Shown piece after piece: positions 6,637 through 43,642 of a stretch of DNA of 64,000 nt. Numbering within the stretch: the first letter of the stretch is position 1; every line of letters starts with the position of its first letter. A program made the position numbers and the translations under genes. The notes beneath the pieces are model-generated. The model did not search any database. It saw nothing but the letters and a program-made list of their open reading frames with translations, and was not told the DNA's origin. Origin of the DNA: Citrus sinensis (Eukaryota > Streptophyta > Magnoliopsida > Sapindales > Rutaceae); contig NC_068560.1 of assembly GCF_022201045.2 (NCBI RefSeq), positions 32,761,001 to 32,825,000 on the forward strand, read 5' to 3'.

Positions 6637-7775
6637 TCCCTCTCTACACGAACTAAATCCTTATTGGTGGCCCAAGTTAGAAGCTAATCTTTTACTCAGT
6701 GCCAGCATAGATGTAAGATATTAAAATTTAATGCAGGTCAAACCTACAGAATTGTTATTTATTCTAACAAGGTGGGTGATTCGTGTCCTAAAACCTCTCT
6801 CCCCCTCCACTTTATTATTCCCTTTCAACATCTTCTTTTCTCCAAATGCTAGCTATATGCAGAACTACCATCCCATCTTCTTTAATTAAATCATTCTACG
6901 GTAAACAACTCCAAATATTTAAATATGCAAATACACAGGTTCCAGCCTGACCTAGGCAATGCGTTTTGTAATGCGATTTATTTACGCTAAAATTGTTGGC
7001 GTTCATATTATAAATTATTTATAGGAAAATGATGTTCTATTCACTGAATCATTCGTCAAAACAGCATTAAACAACATCCATCACTTACCACATCCAAAAT
7101 ATAACCCAAATAAACAATGTAAACATAAAGTACAAATAACAACCACCAACCTACCAAACAAAACAAGCAAAATCCAACTTGGTTCAGTAAAAACATCGAA
7201 CATTTGGCAAGCAATAAACAGAAGGGAAAAAACAAACAATATAACAAAACAGTGACCTGCTGGGTTATAGTGCTTCCGCCCCCGCGAGCCGAGAGAGACA
7301 AAACTGCACGAGAAATCCCAACTGGGTCGACTCCAAAATGCAAAAAAAAACGCTTGTCTTCATAGGCAACAACGGCTTGCCATAAATGTGAAGGGTAACC
7401 TCGCGTTGTGGGTTCATTTTGTTGAGAGAAAGCTACCAGATTGCGCCAACGAAGAGGGAAACTCGGCAAAAGAGCGTTGGAGATGAGGCGGAATAAGAGA
7501 AGAGTTATGGAGAATGTGAAGAGAATGAATAATTCTTGAATGGGCTGGGTTCTTTTGAAGGGGTGATTTTGAGAGGATGACTTTGCTGGGCCGAGAGAGT
7601 TGACTCGGGCGTGGAGTGAGCTCGAACGAGTTGAGAGCGGGTGAGTGATATTAATATACAAGTACTGAGTTGGGTGTGAGTTGAAGCTGCAGTGATTTGG
7701 TGAGTTTTGGTCGTTGCTGAGCGGGAAAATCGGTTTCTTTGTGAGAAGTGTACTGTAAATGGCAGAGAAGGTCAT
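941..7775 (-). CDS. Plastid-type monofunctional peptidoglycan glycosyltransferase (GT51)
   Basis: Five exons on the minus strand: 7775-7257, 2377-2252, 1858-1707, 1495-1339 and 1111-941, all with GT-AG borders and consistent phase, giving 374 aa. GT51 enzymes polymerise lipid II into glycan strands. Residues 1-75 are Ser/Asn/His-rich and acid-poor, like a transit peptide. A membrane helix spans about 80-102. GT51 motifs follow in order: EDKRFF..H.GVD (catalytic Glu139), GGGSTITQQLVKN (166-177, across the first junction), RKIVEM (second conserved Glu192), then IYWGHGIYGIE and EAAMLAGMIPAP. There is no transpeptidase domain, so it resembles a bacterial MtgA-type enzyme. The last exon is acidic and Trp-rich and is the least certain part. 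Intron 1 is about 4.9 kb and contains a receptor kinase gene. A plastid role is inferred. Confidence 0.82.
2361..2630 (-). repeat. Direct duplication of an intron-exon junction (about 138 bp offset)
   Basis: The segment beginning at 2361 recurs from 2499 with few differences. On the minus strand, copy 1 contains the real acceptor and first codons of GT51 exon 2 (LVKNTF). Copy 2, upstream in the intron, repeats the acceptor (CACATTGCAG) and the same first codons, then runs into non-coding sequence. It is a potential decoy 3' splice site. Confidence 0.8.
3290..3475 (+). mobile_element. LTR-retroelement remnant (TRIM-like)
   Basis: The stretch has short-LTR features: a CCCACATCG-type motif near 3370, TATAAGTCATGGGCCC near 3390, and a GGGCTCGGGCTGTTACA end. 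Directly after it, at 3449-3460, comes TGGTACCAGAGC, one base from the usual primer-binding site complementary to initiator-Met tRNA (TGGTATCAGAGC). No retroviral-type coding sequence follows, so it is a solo or truncated non-autonomous copy. It lies in the large GT51 intron. Confidence 0.5.
3849..6464 (-). CDS. G-type lectin S-receptor-like Ser/Thr kinase
   Basis: A single uninterrupted frame of 871 aa starts at an ATG followed by a hydrophobic signal peptide (about 1-19). Domains in order: B-type lectin (about 30-160, with WSANRDTPIS), S-locus glycoprotein region, EGF-like cysteines (about 277-318), a PAN/apple module with paired cysteines (about 330-415), a transmembrane helix (about 440-466), and a protein kinase (about 515-790). 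The kinase has a Gly-rich loop (GSGGFGAVYKG), AVKK lysine, HCDIKPEN catalytic loop and DFG. HCD instead of HRD makes it a non-RD kinase, a class often linked to immune signalling. It should sit in the plasma membrane with the lectin part outside. Length and absence of introns match the Arabidopsis At5g35370 type. The whole gene lies inside intron 1 of the GT51 gene on the same strand. Confidence 0.95.
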   Translation of the reverse strand: MEPLLFVATIFLFIAPASSISFSEFIHPNFTASHVKFIDYGGSFLTSHNGTFKAAIVNTRSQQNSFYLCIIHVLSNTIIWSANRDTPISGSGKMNLTPKGIIISDENGNLKWSTPPLKSSVSALRLTEMGNLVLLDGFNGSLWESFHHPTDTIVIGQQLPAGESLSSAVSDYNLATGDYSLTVGASDAELQWQGQMYWKLSMDTKAYVDSRYIVDYMAINRTGVYLFGNNGSAVVIRVVLPPSNFRIAKLDASGQFTVLRLSGSDLEQEYMGPDDGCQIPFICGRMGMCADDATSGSPSCSCPAGFHLASQNTSGCVPSDASHSLPVACNSTRKESLLNASVVSYLRLGYGMDYFANHFFQPSTYDVNLSFCQELCSDDCSCLGIFFKNSSGSCYMLGNVLGSIMSSNTVDSDLVGYIKVLVGPTQADLNPNNSSSNQNQDFPLVALVLLPFTGFFLFSALGFLWWRRWKLHKSIDSKSGNPNNTLSSGDLEAFYIPGLPQRFDYEELEVATDNFKNLIGSGGFGAVYKGILNDKTIVAVKKITNVGVQGKKDFCTEIAIIGNIHHVNLVKLKGFCAQGRQRLLVYEYMNHGSLDRILFGNGPVLEWQERFDIALGTARGLAYLHSGCEQKIIHCDIKPENILLHYHFQAKISDFGLSKLLTPEQSSLFTTMRGTRGYLAPEWLTNSAISEKTDVYSFGMVLLELVSGRRNCSPRSQSHSMDSNSSGVPSSSSSASALVYFPLLALEMHEQGKYLELADPRLEGRVTNEEVEKLVRIALCCVHEEPAIRPNMVSVVGMLEGGIPVGQPRVESLNFLRFYGRRFTEASMIEEENGQSDVMIIPRANASLTSTTTGFPTCFSYVSSHQISGPR
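6599..6645. repeat. CT microsatellite in the receptor kinase leader
   Basis: A run of about 17 TC dinucleotides followed by CCCTCT units. It lies 135-180 bp upstream of the receptor kinase ATG and reads GA on the coding strand. GA/CT tracts are common in plant 5' leaders and core promoters. It is likely length-polymorphic. Confidence 0.9.
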
Positions 7776-30695: not shown

Positions 30696-31690
30696 TCAGT
30701 TAGAAACCATAGGGATGCTACGCAACACAATTGCTTCAACAGTGAGGCCTGCCTCGAATCCAAGCAGGACTCCCCATTCAAGTTCTTCTCCTGTGGTTGC
30801 CTTTCCTTCTTCCACCGATCTCTTCCTCATCTCATCCAGAACAAATAATACAGTGGCGCTCGCCATGTTTCCATACTCGCTTAGAACGTGTCGAGTTTCT
30901 CTGAGTTTCGTTTTCTCTAGTCCAAGTTTCCCTTCAATCTGGTCAAGAACTGCTGGTCCAATGGGATGCATCATCCAGAACAAAGAGTTCCAATCATGAT
31001 CATTCAAGCTAACTTGATCAAAAGATTCGGCCAAGAACTTGTCAATGTTATCAGCAATCAATGGGGACTAGTTCTTTGACAAATGAACAGTCGGACCGAC
31101 CTCTCGAAAATGCCCCTTGATTGCATCTTCCGAATCTGGAAGAATTGTCTGTGCAGTTGGCACAATGTGGAACAATGGTCGCTCTGTGTTTATATCAGGA
31201 CAGGCACCAACGATCAGAGCTGCTGTACCGTCACCAACAATTGCCCGGTTTACAAGACATGACAAGTTTTCATCAGAAGGTGCTCGGAAAGTACCAACAG
31301 TAATCTCAGAGCAGACAACTAGAACGCGTGCACCAGCATTGCTTTCAGCAGTCCTTGGCGAGGCGTAGAACCGTTGCGCCAGCAGAACAGCCTTGCGCAT
31401 ACAACATCACTCTTTTAACAGATGGTTTAAGGCCAAGAAGTTTTGTAAGTTGATAATCTGCACCAGGCATATCTACACCTGAAACTGAACAGGAAATGAG
31501 ATGAGTGATCTTTGATATGGGTTGTCCCCATTCTTTGATGGCCTTTGATACTGCTTCTTTGCCGAGTTTTGGTACCTTAGGAACTAGAATATCTTGACGA
31601 GCGTCAAAGATGGGGCATCATACGTGCATAAGCTTGGATTCTCCTTGAGAACTTCTTCAGTTAGGTACGTGTAGCGTTTCTTTACAGTTA
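30696..31690 (-). pseudogene. Type III polyketide synthase (chalcone-synthase-like) pseudogene
   Basis: Minus-strand homology covers CHS exon 2 from [19 protein letters not shown] to the end ([11 protein letters not shown]). Exon 1 is not found upstream. Breaks seen: a 1-base loss in the PSL(D)ARQD motif, a shift near AKD/TAES just after the active-site Cys block, and an in-frame TAG after VHLSKN. Several family residues survive: the Cys of the AQGCSAG block, the His of FWMMHPIGP, and SEYGNM. The normal HPGGP is HPIGP, and the terminal GFGPG loop is GFEAG. The 265-equivalent residue is Val (TVHL) instead of the CHS Phe, as in the intact gene at 40.4 kb. The two are probably products of an old local duplication, now in opposite orientation 9 kb apart. 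Confidence 0.92.
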
Positions 31691-32270
31691 GCAAAAAAAA
31701 CACAAGATAACAGTGGCAAAATGATGTTTATTTGCCTGCGTGATCTATATAAAGCTGCTTATATATGATTCTACAACGAGTCATCAATAGATTGTTTAAG
31801 TGATGCATAGATGAACAACTAAATGTGCGTACACATGCGCTTGAATTTCTCCTTCAACTCTGTCATGTGATTGCTGCTAGTGATTCGGAAGTAAAAATCA
31901 GGATAATCAGTTTGGTACACACAGTTTGCTGGATTTGCTGTGCCTATGGCTTAGTATTGAAGCCAAACCTTGAGGTCGTTGGGTCTCTTGAAATTTCCCC
32001 AGCAATGCCATCGATTCCTAGCTACTTAGATTATTTCCACGTGAAATAATCTGCAACTTCTTTTTCCATTTTTTGAATTACTGATATGTATTTTACAATG
32101 AGACGTCTATATTAATTTTTATCGCCTAAGTAAAATTTATTGTGATATAGACTCAAGCAAATAATGATATGGTTAACTTGAGAATTTGAGGGGCGGCTTT
32201 GGCGGTTGTGTCCATTATAAACTTGATCCGACAGAACCTTTCAAATTCAACCACCAAACTGACGAACAGA
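31691..32270. other. Spacer between PKS pseudogene and tandem array
   Basis: An open frame of 74 codons at 31,825-32,049 ends VGSLEISPAMPSIPSYLDYF followed by HVK and stop. It has no domain I recognise and could be a captured exon end. The minus-strand DNA upstream of the pseudogene shows no recognisable CHS exon 1. Confidence 0.35.
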
Positions 32271-37207: not shown

Positions 37208-39660
37208 CTGGGGAAAGCCAAAAATGGAGGCATATTATCAATAATGTATAGTAATGGGACTTGCTTCTTCTGACAAACTCAATAGCTGTATCATATATGT
37301 CCCCACGTCAATTTAGTATTAAATGAAGTTGATAACTCTATCCAAAATGTAATAAAGTGACTTGCTTTTCATCCTATCTTTTGTTAAGTTATATTCAATA
37401 GTGAACACATATATATAAAATAACAAAGTAGGTTAAAGGGCACAGCCCCAGAACACCCCCACAAATGTTTTTAAAAATTAACCATATCATTATTTGTTTG
37501 GGTTATTTCATAGTCGATTTAATTTAGGTTGGTCCAGGAGATAAGAACAAACAAGAATAATAAAGTTATAAATCTCTATCCACATCTAATAATGTAGTCA
37601 TGGGACTACATATTGTTGCGCGAGTTGAAACATATTGTCATTTATTTTATCAACTCCAGCCTATCAATGTTGACCATTCTAACGCTGTCACAGTTTTGGT
37701 ACGTGGAGCTTCTAGATCAAGAGCACATGCACGTTCTGGGGAAAGCAAAAAATGGAGGCATATTATCAATAATGTCTAGTAATGGGACTTACTTCTTCTG
37801 ACAAACTCAATAGCTGTATCATATATGTCCCCACGTCAATTTAGTATTAAATGAAGTTGATAACTCTATCCAAAATGTAATAAAGTGACTTGCTTTTCAT
37901 CATATCTTTTGTTAAGTTATATTCAATAGTGGACACATATATATAAAATAACAAAGTAGGTTAAAAATTAACCATATCATTATTTGTTTGGGTTATTTCA
38001 TAGTCGATTTAATTTAGGTTGTTCCAGGAGATAAGAACAAACAAGAATAATAAAGTTATAAATCTCTATCCACATCTAATAATGTAGTCATGGGACTCAA
38101 TATTGTTGCACGAGCTGAAACACATTGTCATTTATTTTATCAACTCTAGCCTATCAATGTTGACCATTCTAACGCTGTCACAGTTTTGGTACGTGGAACT
38201 TCTTGATGAAGAGCACATGCACGTTCTGGGGAAAGCAAAAAATGGAGGCATATTATCAATAATGTCTAGTAATGGGACTTGCTTCTTCTGACAAACTCAA
38301 TAGTTGTATCATATATGTCCCCATGTCAATTTAGTATTAAATGAAGTTGATCACTTTATCCAAAATGTAATAAAATGACTTGTTTTTCATCTTATCTTTT
38401 GTTAAGTTATATTCAATAGTGGATGCATATATATAAAATAACAAAGTAGGTTAAAAATTAATCATATCATTATTTGTTTGGGTTATTTCATAGTAGATTT
38501 AATTTAGGTTGTTCCAGGAGATAAGAACAAACAAGAATAATAAAGTTATAAATCTCTATCCACATCTAATAATGTAGTCATGGGACTACATATTGTTGCG
38601 CGAGTTAAAACATATTGTCATTTATTTTATCAACTCCAGCCTATCAATGTTGACCATTCTAACGCTGTCACAGTTTTGGTACATGGAGCTTCTAGATCAA
38701 GAGCACATGCACGTTCTGGGGAAAGTAAAAAATGGAGGCATATTATCAATAATGTCTAGTAATGGGACTTGCTTCTTCTGACAAACTCAATAGCTGTATC
38801 ATATATGTCCCCACGTCAATTTAGTATTAAATGAAGTTGATAACTCTATCCAAAATGTAATAAAGTGACTCTATCCAAAATGTAATAAAGTGACTTGATT
38901 TTCATCATATCTTTTGTTAAGTTATATTCAATAGTGGACACATATATATAAAATAACAAAGTAGGTTAAAAGGCACAGCCCCAAAACACCCCCACAAATT
39001 TTTTTAAAAATTAACCATATCATTATTTGTTTGGGTTATTTCATGGTCGATTTAATTTAGGTTGTTCCAGAAGATAAGAACAAACAAGAATAATAAAGTT
39101 ATAAATCTCTATCCACATCTAATAATGTAGTCATGGGACTCAATATTGTTGCATGAGCTGAAACACATTGGCATTTATTTTATCAACTCCAGCCTATCAA
39201 TGTTGACCATTCTAACGCTGTCACAGTTTTGGTACGTGGAGCTTCTTGATCAAGAGCACATACACGTTCTGGGGAAAGCAAAAAATGGAGGCATATTATC
39301 AATAATGTCTAGTAATGGGACTTGCTTATTCTGACAAACTCAATAGTTGTATCATATATGTCCCCAGGTCAATTTAGTATTAAATGAAGTTGATAACTCT
39401 ATCCAAAATGTAATAAAGTAACTTGCTTTCCATCCTATCTTTTGTTAAGTTATATTCAATAGTGGACACATATATATAAAATAACAAAGTAGGTTAAAGA
39501 TCACAGCCCCAGAACACCCCCACAAATTTTTTAAAAAATTAACCATATCATTATTTGTTTGGGTTATTTCATAGTCGATTTAATTTAGGTTGTTCCAGGA
39601 GATAAGAACAAACAAGAATAATAAAGTTATAAATCTCTATCCACATCTAATAATGTAGTC

Positions 39661-40358
39661 ATGGGACTCACGTTTCATCCCATCTCTTATAATGTCATAT
39701 TCAATAATGGACCTATATAAATAAGAATAGAGCAGATTAATGAGCGAAATCGCAAACCATCCCCTTAAATTTTAAGCAAATCAACCATATCATTATTTGT
39801 TTGGGTTAGTCATAATAGACTTAATATAGGAGGCCCTGATATACAAGAATGAATAAAATTAATAAAGTTATAGATTAGTATCTACATTTGGTAATGGGCC
39901 TTGGTATATTATATATATATATAATATTTTGTATTCATAACGTTGTCATATTTACTAATGCTCCAAACACAATGTTATGGATACAAAATATTATATATAA
40001 AATATACCATGCTTTAAAAAATCCCATATCAATTAATAATACAAATTCAATTATGAATTAAGTATCATAAAATTAAAGCAATCCTCAACTCTTGAGTTGA
40101 TCTTTGTATATGAGTTAATCATATATACTTTTACAAAAATTTACATGTTGGTAAGGGATGTGTGAAGAAAAATATACATCACGTGATCTACATGATTAGC
40201 ATTCAATTTATGAAAATCTATCAATTAATTTACAACTATATACCAGCATTTTTTTCCCCTACTTTTTAAAATATTTTTTAAAAAAAAGAACTCTATAAAT
40301 ACCAGTATTGGAAATTGGTTAGCATGCCGTGTTCATCAAAATCAAGGTTGAATATATA
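39661..40358 (+). promoter_or_regulatory. Upstream region of the type III PKS gene
   Basis: At 39,670-39,900 is a degenerate extra half-unit of the tandem array. It lacks the frame-containing half and jumps from CATGGGACTCA straight to TTTCATCC. A 110-bp hairpin follows at 39,901-40,010. A TATAAAT box at 40,294-40,300 lies 58 bp before the ATG, so transcription probably starts near 40,325. An ATCACGTGATC palindrome containing a G-box core is at about 40,178-40,188. Confidence 0.7.
39901..40010. repeat. Near-perfect hairpin upstream of the PKS gene
   Basis: The left arm starts GGTATATTATATATATATAT and continues AATATTTTGTATTCATAACG. The right arm starts CGT-less at ACAATGTTATGGATACAAAA and ends AAAATATACC, the inverse of the left start. 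The loop is about 25 bp. It looks like a tiny MITE and could also yield a small-RNA hairpin if transcribed. Confidence 0.75.
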
Positions 40359-41643
40359 ATGGAGAAAGTTAAAGATGGGAAGAACCAACAGCAAGGAGGA
40401 GGGTTAGCCACGATCCTAGCCATCGGCACTGCAAATCCACCAAACTGCTTATACCAAGCTGACTACCCTGATTATTACTTCCGTGTCACCAACAGTGACC
40501 ACATGACTCTCCTCAAACAAAAATTCAAACGCATCTGTGAGTTTATTACGTATTTTTATTTCATGCATGCACATTAATAAATTAACATTAACATATGCTT
40601 TTTCTCAGCATGGTTATTGTATGTGGTTTACAGGCGAGAAATCAAATGTGAAGAAACGCTACTTCCATGTTACCGAAGATATTCTCAAAAAGAACCCAAA
40701 TATATGTGCCTACGACGGCTCCTCCCTCGATAGCCGTCAAGATATATTGGTTAGGGAAGTACCGAAACTTGGCGAGGAAGCGGCAACAAAAGCAATCAAA
40801 GAATGGGGCCAATCAAAATCCCAGATCACGCATCTCATTTTCTGCTCACTTGTGGGCGTAGACATGCCCGGGGCTGACTATCAGCTGACCAAAATGTTGG
40901 GCCTCAACCCATCTGTCAAACGAGTCATGCTATACTTTCAAGGCTGTTACATTGGCGCCACAGCCATCCGAATGGCCAAGGACTTTGCTGAAAACAACCC
41001 TGGTACCCGCGTTCTAGTCGTATGCTCTGACTTATCCCTTGGTACTTTCCGTGGACCTTCTGATGCCAACTTAGGCTGCCTTGCAGGCCAAGCCCTCTTC
41101 GGCGACGGCGCCGCAGCTTTAATCATTGGCGCTAATCCTGACACTACATTGTCAGAAAAGCCATTGTTCCAAATTGTGTCGGGTGCACAAACGATTCTGC
41201 CGGGCTCCGACTCAGATGTTGCGGGACAATTCCGGGAAATGGGACTCACAGTTCATTTGTCCAAAAACGTAGCCACGGTGGTATCCGAAAACATTGAGAA
41301 ATGTTTGGATGAGGCGTTTAGTCCGTTCGGAATCAAAGATTGGAACTCATTGTTCTGGATTGTTCAACCCGGTGGCCCGGCTATTGTGAACCAAATTGAA
41401 GCCAAACTTGGGCTGAAACAACAGAAGCTCTCGGCCACGAGACACGTATTAAGCGAGTACGGAAACATGGGTGGGGTGAGTGTGTTTTTTATTCTAGATG
41501 AAATCAGGAGGAAATCGGCGGAGGAAGGGAAGGTCACCACAGGTGAAGGGCTCGAGTGGGGCGTTATGTTCGGAATTGGTGCTGGTGTCACTGTTGATAC
41601 CGTCGTGTTGCGTAGCTTTCCCTTCCCTACTGTTACAACCTAG
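40359..41643 (+). CDS. Diverged type III polyketide synthase (CHS/acridone-synthase-like)
   Basis: Two exons, 40359-40536 and 40634-41643, with the 97-bp intron inside a Cys codon (T|GC) exactly as in CHS genes. 395 aa, the usual family length. The family condenses a starter CoA with malonyl-CoA units as a cytosolic homodimer. With alfalfa CHS2 numbering, Cys164 (FQGCYIG), Phe215 (ALFGDG) and Asn336 (SEYGNM) are kept. The catalytic His303 is Gln (FWIVQPGGP, residue 304 here because of a 1-residue insertion). Further pocket changes are T131S, T132L, S133V, T194S, F265V and S338G, and the GFGPG loop is GIGAG. Positions 132, 133 and 265 are those known to separate Ruta acridone synthase from CHS. 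A true chalcone synthase is therefore unlikely. It is either a new specificity or an enzyme with weak activity. The frame is fully open. Confidence 0.95.
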
Positions 41644-43313: not shown

Positions 43314-43642
43314 GCGACAGGTGCCTGTCGCAAAAAAAACTTGGTGCGACAGGCACCTGTCGCACTTAGCTTGGTGCGACAGGCAACCTGTCGCACTTAG
43401 CTTGGTGCGACAGGCAACCTGTCGCACTTAGCTTGGTGCGACAGGCAACCTGTCGCACTTAGCTTGGTGCGACAGGCAACCTGTCGCACTTAGCTTGGTG
43501 CGACAGGCACCTGTCGCACTTAGCTTGGTGCGACAGGCAACCTGTCGCACTTAGCTTGGTGCGACAGGCAACCTGTCGCACTTAGCTTGGTGCGACAGGC
43601 AACCTGTCGCACTTAGCTTGGTGCGACAGGCACCTGTCGCAC
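43314..43642. repeat. Minisatellite of eleven palindromes (30-31 bp period)
   Basis: The unit is GGTGCGACAGG, a short centre (CA or CAA), CCTGTCGCAC, then TTAGCTT. Each unit is itself a near-perfect inverted repeat, so single strands can fold into a row of hairpins. There are eleven palindromes in a row: the 1st has centre TG, the 2nd, 7th and 11th have CA, and the others have CAA. Further copies are at about 44,024-44,063. Reversed-centre versions (TGTCGCACCAAAATTGGTGC) are at 44,732-44,790. There are no unique spacers, so it is not a CRISPR array. Confidence 0.93.

Follow-up and report, generated by a model that had tools for sequence, protein, structure and literature searches.

The window analysed here, a stretch of 64,000 nucleotides from Citrus sinensis, contains a type III PKS gene on the forward strand (join(40359..40536, 40634..41643)) that encodes 395 amino acids with no internal stop. 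Exon 1 (40359..40536, +) covers residues 1–59 and the first base of a Cys codon, whereas exon 2 (40634..41643, +) ends at TAG and encodes Cys164, Gln303 and Asn336. Between them lies a 97-bp GT...AG intron (40537..40633, +) that interrupts the conserved Cys codon at the position usual for the chalcone synthase (CHS) family, bearing out the intact full-length frame and canonical CHS intron of the initial annotation. The CAA codon for Gln in place of His303 (41365..41367, +), which that annotation had also singled out, was read from the sequence and is repeated in other records and species. Pfam domains Chal_sti_synt_N and Chal_sti_synt_C score 345.8 and 197.4 bits in the protein (cut-off 27), and a CHS fold is indicated because the protein is similar over its full length to many CHS crystal structures. 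Judged by sequence, it belongs to the type III PKS superfamily in both descent and fold.

In public annotation this is a plain CHS-like gene, represented by P0004 ('Chalcone synthase [Citrus sinensis]'). When the joined coordinates are compared with this public protein, P0004 is the window gene, letter for letter, minus an 84-nt stretch (41003..41086, +) treated as an in-frame, cryptic GT...AG intron, and 28 core residues are lost by its removal. The exon 1/exon 2 junction is used by both models. P0004 is labelled 'isoform X2', a weak and indirect sign of expression. A further Citrus record, P0005 (representative of a cluster of 74 member sequences), also has Gln303, but its start falls inside the intron and it is therefore not a spliced transcript.

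Pattern matches upstream of the gene include a putative G-box-like motif, CACGTG (40180..40185, unstranded, 179 bp 5' of the ATG), and a putative TATA-box-like motif, TATAAATA (40294..40301, +, 65 bp 5' of the ATG). Repeats are found on both sides: a tandem array of about four 490-bp units (37471-39498) ends less than 1 kb upstream, and about ten copies of a 31-bp unit with 98% matches, containing TGCGACAGG...CCTGTCGCA, lie 1.7 kb downstream (43340-43642). Elsewhere in the window, an ORF at 7056-7775 (-) encodes part of the Transglycosylase domain of a peptidoglycan-type enzyme (PF00912, 52 bits), here on a nuclear plant contig; it probably belongs, as a single exon, to a larger gene.

About 8.4 kb from the Gln303 gene and inverted relative to it lies a decayed CHS-like paralogue (30696..31953, -), with stops and frame shifts, which the trees group with Acer negundo and P0152 in a sister subclade. 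It has kept His303, so that within the window the His303 copy is dead and the Gln303 copy still open. A Pfam search of the genome gave 35 exon-level matches, and all 13 further Citrus loci that cover the position (L009-L021) have His303, as does the window pseudogene. Among them, the Citrus acridone synthase corresponds to L012 and L013 (G000:C7, 26.99 and 27.03 Mb), a pair of genes separated by about 42 kb whose spliced proteins are identical and match 3wd7 best, and the quinolone synthase to L020, whose translation fits the 3wd8 rows. About 1 Mb from the Gln303 gene, on the contig that holds the window, L015 and L016 (G000:C5, ~33.845 and ~33.828 Mb) form an inverted, near-identical pair resembling alkyldiketide-CoA synthase, with Trp338. 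A cluster of related PKS genes (L017, L018, L019 and L021) occupies 10.40-10.61 Mb of G000:C8; L018 is nearest to alkylquinolone/quinolone synthase, and the frame of L019 is disrupted in the translated match.

Triad and pocket residues

Residue numbers were anchored so that Cys164, His303 and Asn336 match MsCHS; owing to a one-residue insertion near 231, Gln303 is residue 304 of the window protein itself. The triad reads Cys164-Gln303-Asn336, the catalytic His303 being absent. On these residues the protein is best filed as a variant by descent that is without the defining Cys-His-Asn triad. All four pocket substitutions proposed at the outset (T132L, S133V, F265V and S338G) are seen in the MsCHS-numbered alignment, and E192D, G168A and P375A can be added to them. 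The GFGPG loop (372-376) reads GIGAG in the window protein and in Zanthoxylum, and GLGAG in Populus. Phe215 is retained, as are Lys55, Arg58 and Lys62, which we take to be the CoA-binding residues.

True CHSs (those on Citrus contigs C2 and C9, and Ruta CHS3) share with the window protein the fold, intron site, Cys164, Asn336 and CoA-binding residues at about 66% identity, but they have His303 and the CHS pocket residues and fall in a separate part of the tree. Differences from the Citrus CHS on C9 include L98, R100, S131, L132, V133, F161, Y165, I166, S194, L195, G196, V265, V302, N311, G338, G339, I373 and A375 in the window protein. Chalcone synthase was rejected as its identity on L, V, V and G at 132, 133, 265 and 338 and on its branching apart from the CHSs. 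Stilbene synthase was likewise rejected: the Glu192-Thr132-Ser338 network that forms the aldol switch of that enzyme (PMC6274091) is replaced by Asp, Leu and Gly.

Positions 132, 133 and 265 had also been read as a hint of acridone synthase. Rutaceae produce acridone and quinolone alkaloids, and a synthase of either type with a tolerated triad change would fit Val265, as in acridone synthase, and Gly338, as in quinolone synthase. The window protein and acridone synthase (3wd7; Citrus L012/L013) have V265 and Y165 in common. However, at 65% identity the latter differs in H303, S132, A133, S338 and P375; the window protein has L, V and V at 132, 133 and 265, and of five changed positions only V265 is shared with the Citrus enzyme, so that the hint did not hold. 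Quinolone synthase (3wd8; L020) resembles the window protein in G338-G339 and in a bulky residue at 132 (Met there, Leu in the window), but differs in H303, A131, A133 and L265 and in its part of the tree. When aligned with these sets, as the initial annotation had proposed, the window gene groups in a CHS-like clade apart from CHS and from acridone and quinolone synthases. C. sinensis thus has separate matches of both alkaloid enzymes, with His303 and other pocket residues, outside this clade, and acridones are not known from Populus, which also has Gln303. An acridone- or quinolone-type synthase is therefore highly improbable here.

Distribution and history of Gln303

Three protein searches (the best 120 of 2932, best 120 of 2830 and best 120 of 985 matches, the third with a query that itself carried Gln303) listed 232 proteins, in which position 303 is His in 226, Gln in six and no other residue; these counts are not a population frequency. 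Since this is a sample of best matches, further Gln303 cases are possible. The six are two from Citrus, one from Zanthoxylum and three from Populus. Zanthoxylum armatum P0006, the closest full-length protein of another species among the matches listed (83% identity), reads ...FWIVQPGG..., and Populus alba P0065 and P. trichocarpa P0162 read ...FWIVQPSG.... Cys164 is present in all five Gln303 sequences that cover the site; the sixth, P0163, has no coverage there. Moreover, L132, D192, V265, G338 and A375 are common to the Gln303 proteins from Citrus, Zanthoxylum and two Populus species, whereas none occurs in two Citrus CHSs and V265 alone in Citrus acridone synthase. A sequencing or assembly error behind the CAA codon was rejected on the same Gln in P0004, P0005 and other species, and the sequences from Zanthoxylum and Populus make the private decay of one copy less likely.

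Other active-site positions vary among these relatives. Phe215, kept in the window protein, is replaced by Val in Zanthoxylum, where G163S is also seen, and by Thr in Populus, which has D217E and G305S as well. As far as the sequences tell, the active site is altered further in both genera than in the window protein. P0005, one public Citrus sequence, carries Ala308Asp, at a position that we assume to be part of the CoA site.

Relationships were examined with trees of 49 and 34 rows, including 40 and 25 hand-picked proteins of the 232 listed. Omitted from them were L016, L019 and L021 (no clean splice), L013 (the same protein as L012), the far relatives L011 and L014, and the fragments L022-L024. 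Gene models for the trees came from a splice search limited to introns that split the Cys codon, and they are hence no evidence for that intron site. In both trees the window gene forms a pair with the Zanthoxylum sequence (100/99 in the 49-row tree, 100/98 in the 34-row tree). This pair joins Populus, Xanthoceras and Althaea (93/89 and 90/82) with the inner order unresolved, and next Acer negundo, P0152 and the window pseudogene (94/92 and 96/92). The resulting nine-row CHS-like clade is separate from CHS, acridone synthase and the quinolone/alkyldiketide group. His303 is found in five of its rows (Acer negundo P0172, P0152, Althaea P0164, Xanthoceras P0008 and the window pseudogene), which share with the window protein Val265 in four of five cases (not Althaea) and Ala375 in four of five (not Xanthoceras).

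Because Xanthoceras and Althaea carry His303, the best trees require two or more switches between His and Gln. Forcing the four Gln rows into one clade, with column 303 omitted, costs 4.29 log-likelihood units (p-AU 0.249) and is not rejected. Gln303 may accordingly have arisen once, long ago, and reverted to His in places, or may have been gained in parallel. Citrus and Zanthoxylum belong to the Rutaceae (Sapindales, malvids) and Populus to the Salicaceae (Malpighiales, fabids), so that if Gln303 was gained once, this would have been very long ago.

Constraint was assessed at 115 family-invariant positions, defined as at least 98% conserved in 187 other family rows. Citrus and Zanthoxylum differ at 5 of 115 such positions versus 70 of 272 elsewhere (Fisher p = 2e-7), Citrus and Populus at 8 of 115 versus 120 of 275 (p = 4e-14), and the pseudogene and P0152 at 13 of 112 versus 70 of 250 (p = 4e-4). 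These sequence comparisons show that purifying selection acted in the past along every path, that of the pseudogene among them, which is not proof for present-day Citrus. Against Citrus paralogues, dN is 0.24-0.32 and dS, which is saturated, 2.1-3.1 in four pairs, with two of six pairs not computable, which makes dN/dS a weak guide. Changes unique to the window gene number 30/331, 19/363 and 28/166 at codon positions 1, 2 and 3, compared with 35/331, 29/363 and 30/166 for the pseudogene; the window gene is slightly tighter, a modest difference.

These data bear on whether the gene is in early decay, a slightly harmful change of His303 having been fixed in a redundant paralogue and the Populus Gln having arisen independently, by chance. 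The neighbouring paralogue is already a pseudogene, P0005 has Ala308Asp, the isoform X2 model is without 28 core residues, and two state changes are required on the best tree. In addition, a study of 77 Citrus CHS and CHS-like sequences reports expression for 3 of 10 candidates tested, which may or may not include the window gene (PMC6134715). Against this, frames are open in relatives at 82-83% identity to the window protein (Zanthoxylum) and 67-70% (Populus), and invariant positions are spared. Furthermore, of the seven amino acids one base from a His codon, Gln is the sole one seen in the 232 listed proteins, and it is the one reported to be compatible with decarboxylation (see below). Early decay is thus unlikely, in keeping with the earlier argument, drawn from the absence of stops, against plain decay. 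Sequence and distribution give the Gln303 gene the appearance of a long-standing variant that has been kept, not of a damaged copy.

Predicted chemistry and its precedents

An engineered counterpart is available in alfalfa CHS2 H303Q (PDB 1d6i), in whose chain Gln was read residue by residue. It has the same Cys-Gln-Asn triad and CHS fold and matches residues 8-388 of the window protein at 553 bits, but it is a laboratory mutant, whereas Gln303 in the window gene is natural. The remaining pocket of 1d6i is presumably that of wild-type CHS (the C-terminal 96 residues alone were compared). The original report of this mutant is said to describe retained activity and a raised cysteine pKa.

The claim that mutation of His303 impairs alfalfa CHS stands for H303A, H303D, H303N and H303T, which abolish malonyl-CoA decarboxylation, but not for H303Q, the stated exception, in which decarboxylation is kept (PMC6274091). 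The H303Q entry in section 4.1 of that review covers decarboxylation and is silent on condensation. By that account, Gln303 would be the one replacement with which the reaction is reported to be compatible.

The explanation we favour, to which we give an even chance, is that the window gene is a retained member of a rosid CHS-like type III PKS lineage, with Gln replacing the catalytic His303, that condenses slowly and makes a short product. In such an enzyme, an acyl starter would be loaded onto Cys164 and malonyl-CoA decarboxylated, the side-chain amide of Gln303 and Asn336 serving as hydrogen-bond donors to the thioester carbonyl and enolate. Cys164 would be less acidic, and turnover slower, than with His303. 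Leu132, Gly338 and Asp192 would break the Thr132/Glu192/Ser338 aldol-switch network and alter the pocket, and the likeliest product would be a short di- or triketide, freed by lactonisation or hydrolysis, and not a chalcone, stilbene or acridone.

This explanation is supported by the presence of Gln303 in Citrus, Zanthoxylum and Populus with the same pocket residues, by H303Q being alone among the reviewed His303 mutants in keeping decarboxylation, by the retention of Cys164, Asn336, Lys55, Arg58 and Lys62 with invariant positions spared, and by G338 and Met132 in the Citrus quinolone synthase match. Counting against it are Ala308Asp, the dead sister copy and the altered Phe215, Gly163 and Gly305 of relatives; a dN/dS that is low only against saturated dS and a codon-position split barely tighter than the pseudogene's; and the two or more His/Gln changes on the best trees. 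Slow condensation to short products without the aldol switch is the least certain step. We infer it from Leu132, Asp192 and Gly338 together with the conversion of benzophenone synthase into a phenylpyrone synthase by T132L (PMC6274091). In another PKS, S338G gives a longer chain (PMC6274091), which points against short products for that residue. In favour of short products, the quinolone synthase of C. microcarpa, which has a smaller cavity, stops after one condensation (PMC11093982).

Alternatively, the protein may have kept the CHS fold and CoA binding without condensing, and serve as a malonyl-CoA decarboxylase, a PKS dimer partner or a regulator. Gln303, the modified GFGPG loop and the substitutions that relatives show at Phe215, Gly163 or Gly305 would fit relaxed catalysis on a maintained fold, and H303Q still decarboxylates (PMC6274091). 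However, Cys164, which is required for condensation and dispensable for decarboxylation (PMC6274091), is kept wherever a Gln303 sequence covers it, and L132, V265 and G338 are identical in Citrus, Zanthoxylum and Populus, as if selected for a product. A non-condensing protein is therefore rather unlikely, though it deserves some weight.

Under the favoured explanation of a slow condensing enzyme, we further propose, tentatively and with somewhat less than even confidence, that a PKS lineage with the Gln303 triad has been working since before the split of Rutaceae and Salicaceae. A neutral amide would take the place of the imidazolium, and a pocket rebuilt with L132, D192, V265, G338 and A375 would yield a short polyketide that has so far been attributed to no plant enzyme.

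A survey that included C. sinensis, C. clementina and P. trichocarpa describes 164C, 303H and 336N as extremely conserved in all genes and species (PMC5004622), and a comparison in Senna found the triad kept in 30 of 30 members (PMC10003783). At the level of sequence, the window and Populus Gln303 proteins contradict the universality of 303H as it is worded in PMC5004622. That survey dropped highly similar clustered sequences, so Gln303 genes may be absent from its set. Full-text searches of non-subscription literature, for a natural Gln303 and for the Populus gene, listed no report of such a residue, although a mention within a text is possible. A CHS-like lineage with Gln for the catalytic His, in at least two plant families, is new within the bounds of that literature.

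The Cys-His-Asn triad is regarded as invariant and as what defines the catalytic machinery of type III PKSs. A natural Gln303 lineage would provide a direct test, in nature, of the need for the histidine and for the thiolate-imidazolium pair, with the laboratory H303Q mutant (1d6i) as a ready comparator. If active, the Gln303 enzymes would offer polyketide engineering a new point of departure; should they prove inactive, they would represent a conserved CHS-fold pseudoenzyme, and either outcome would be informative.
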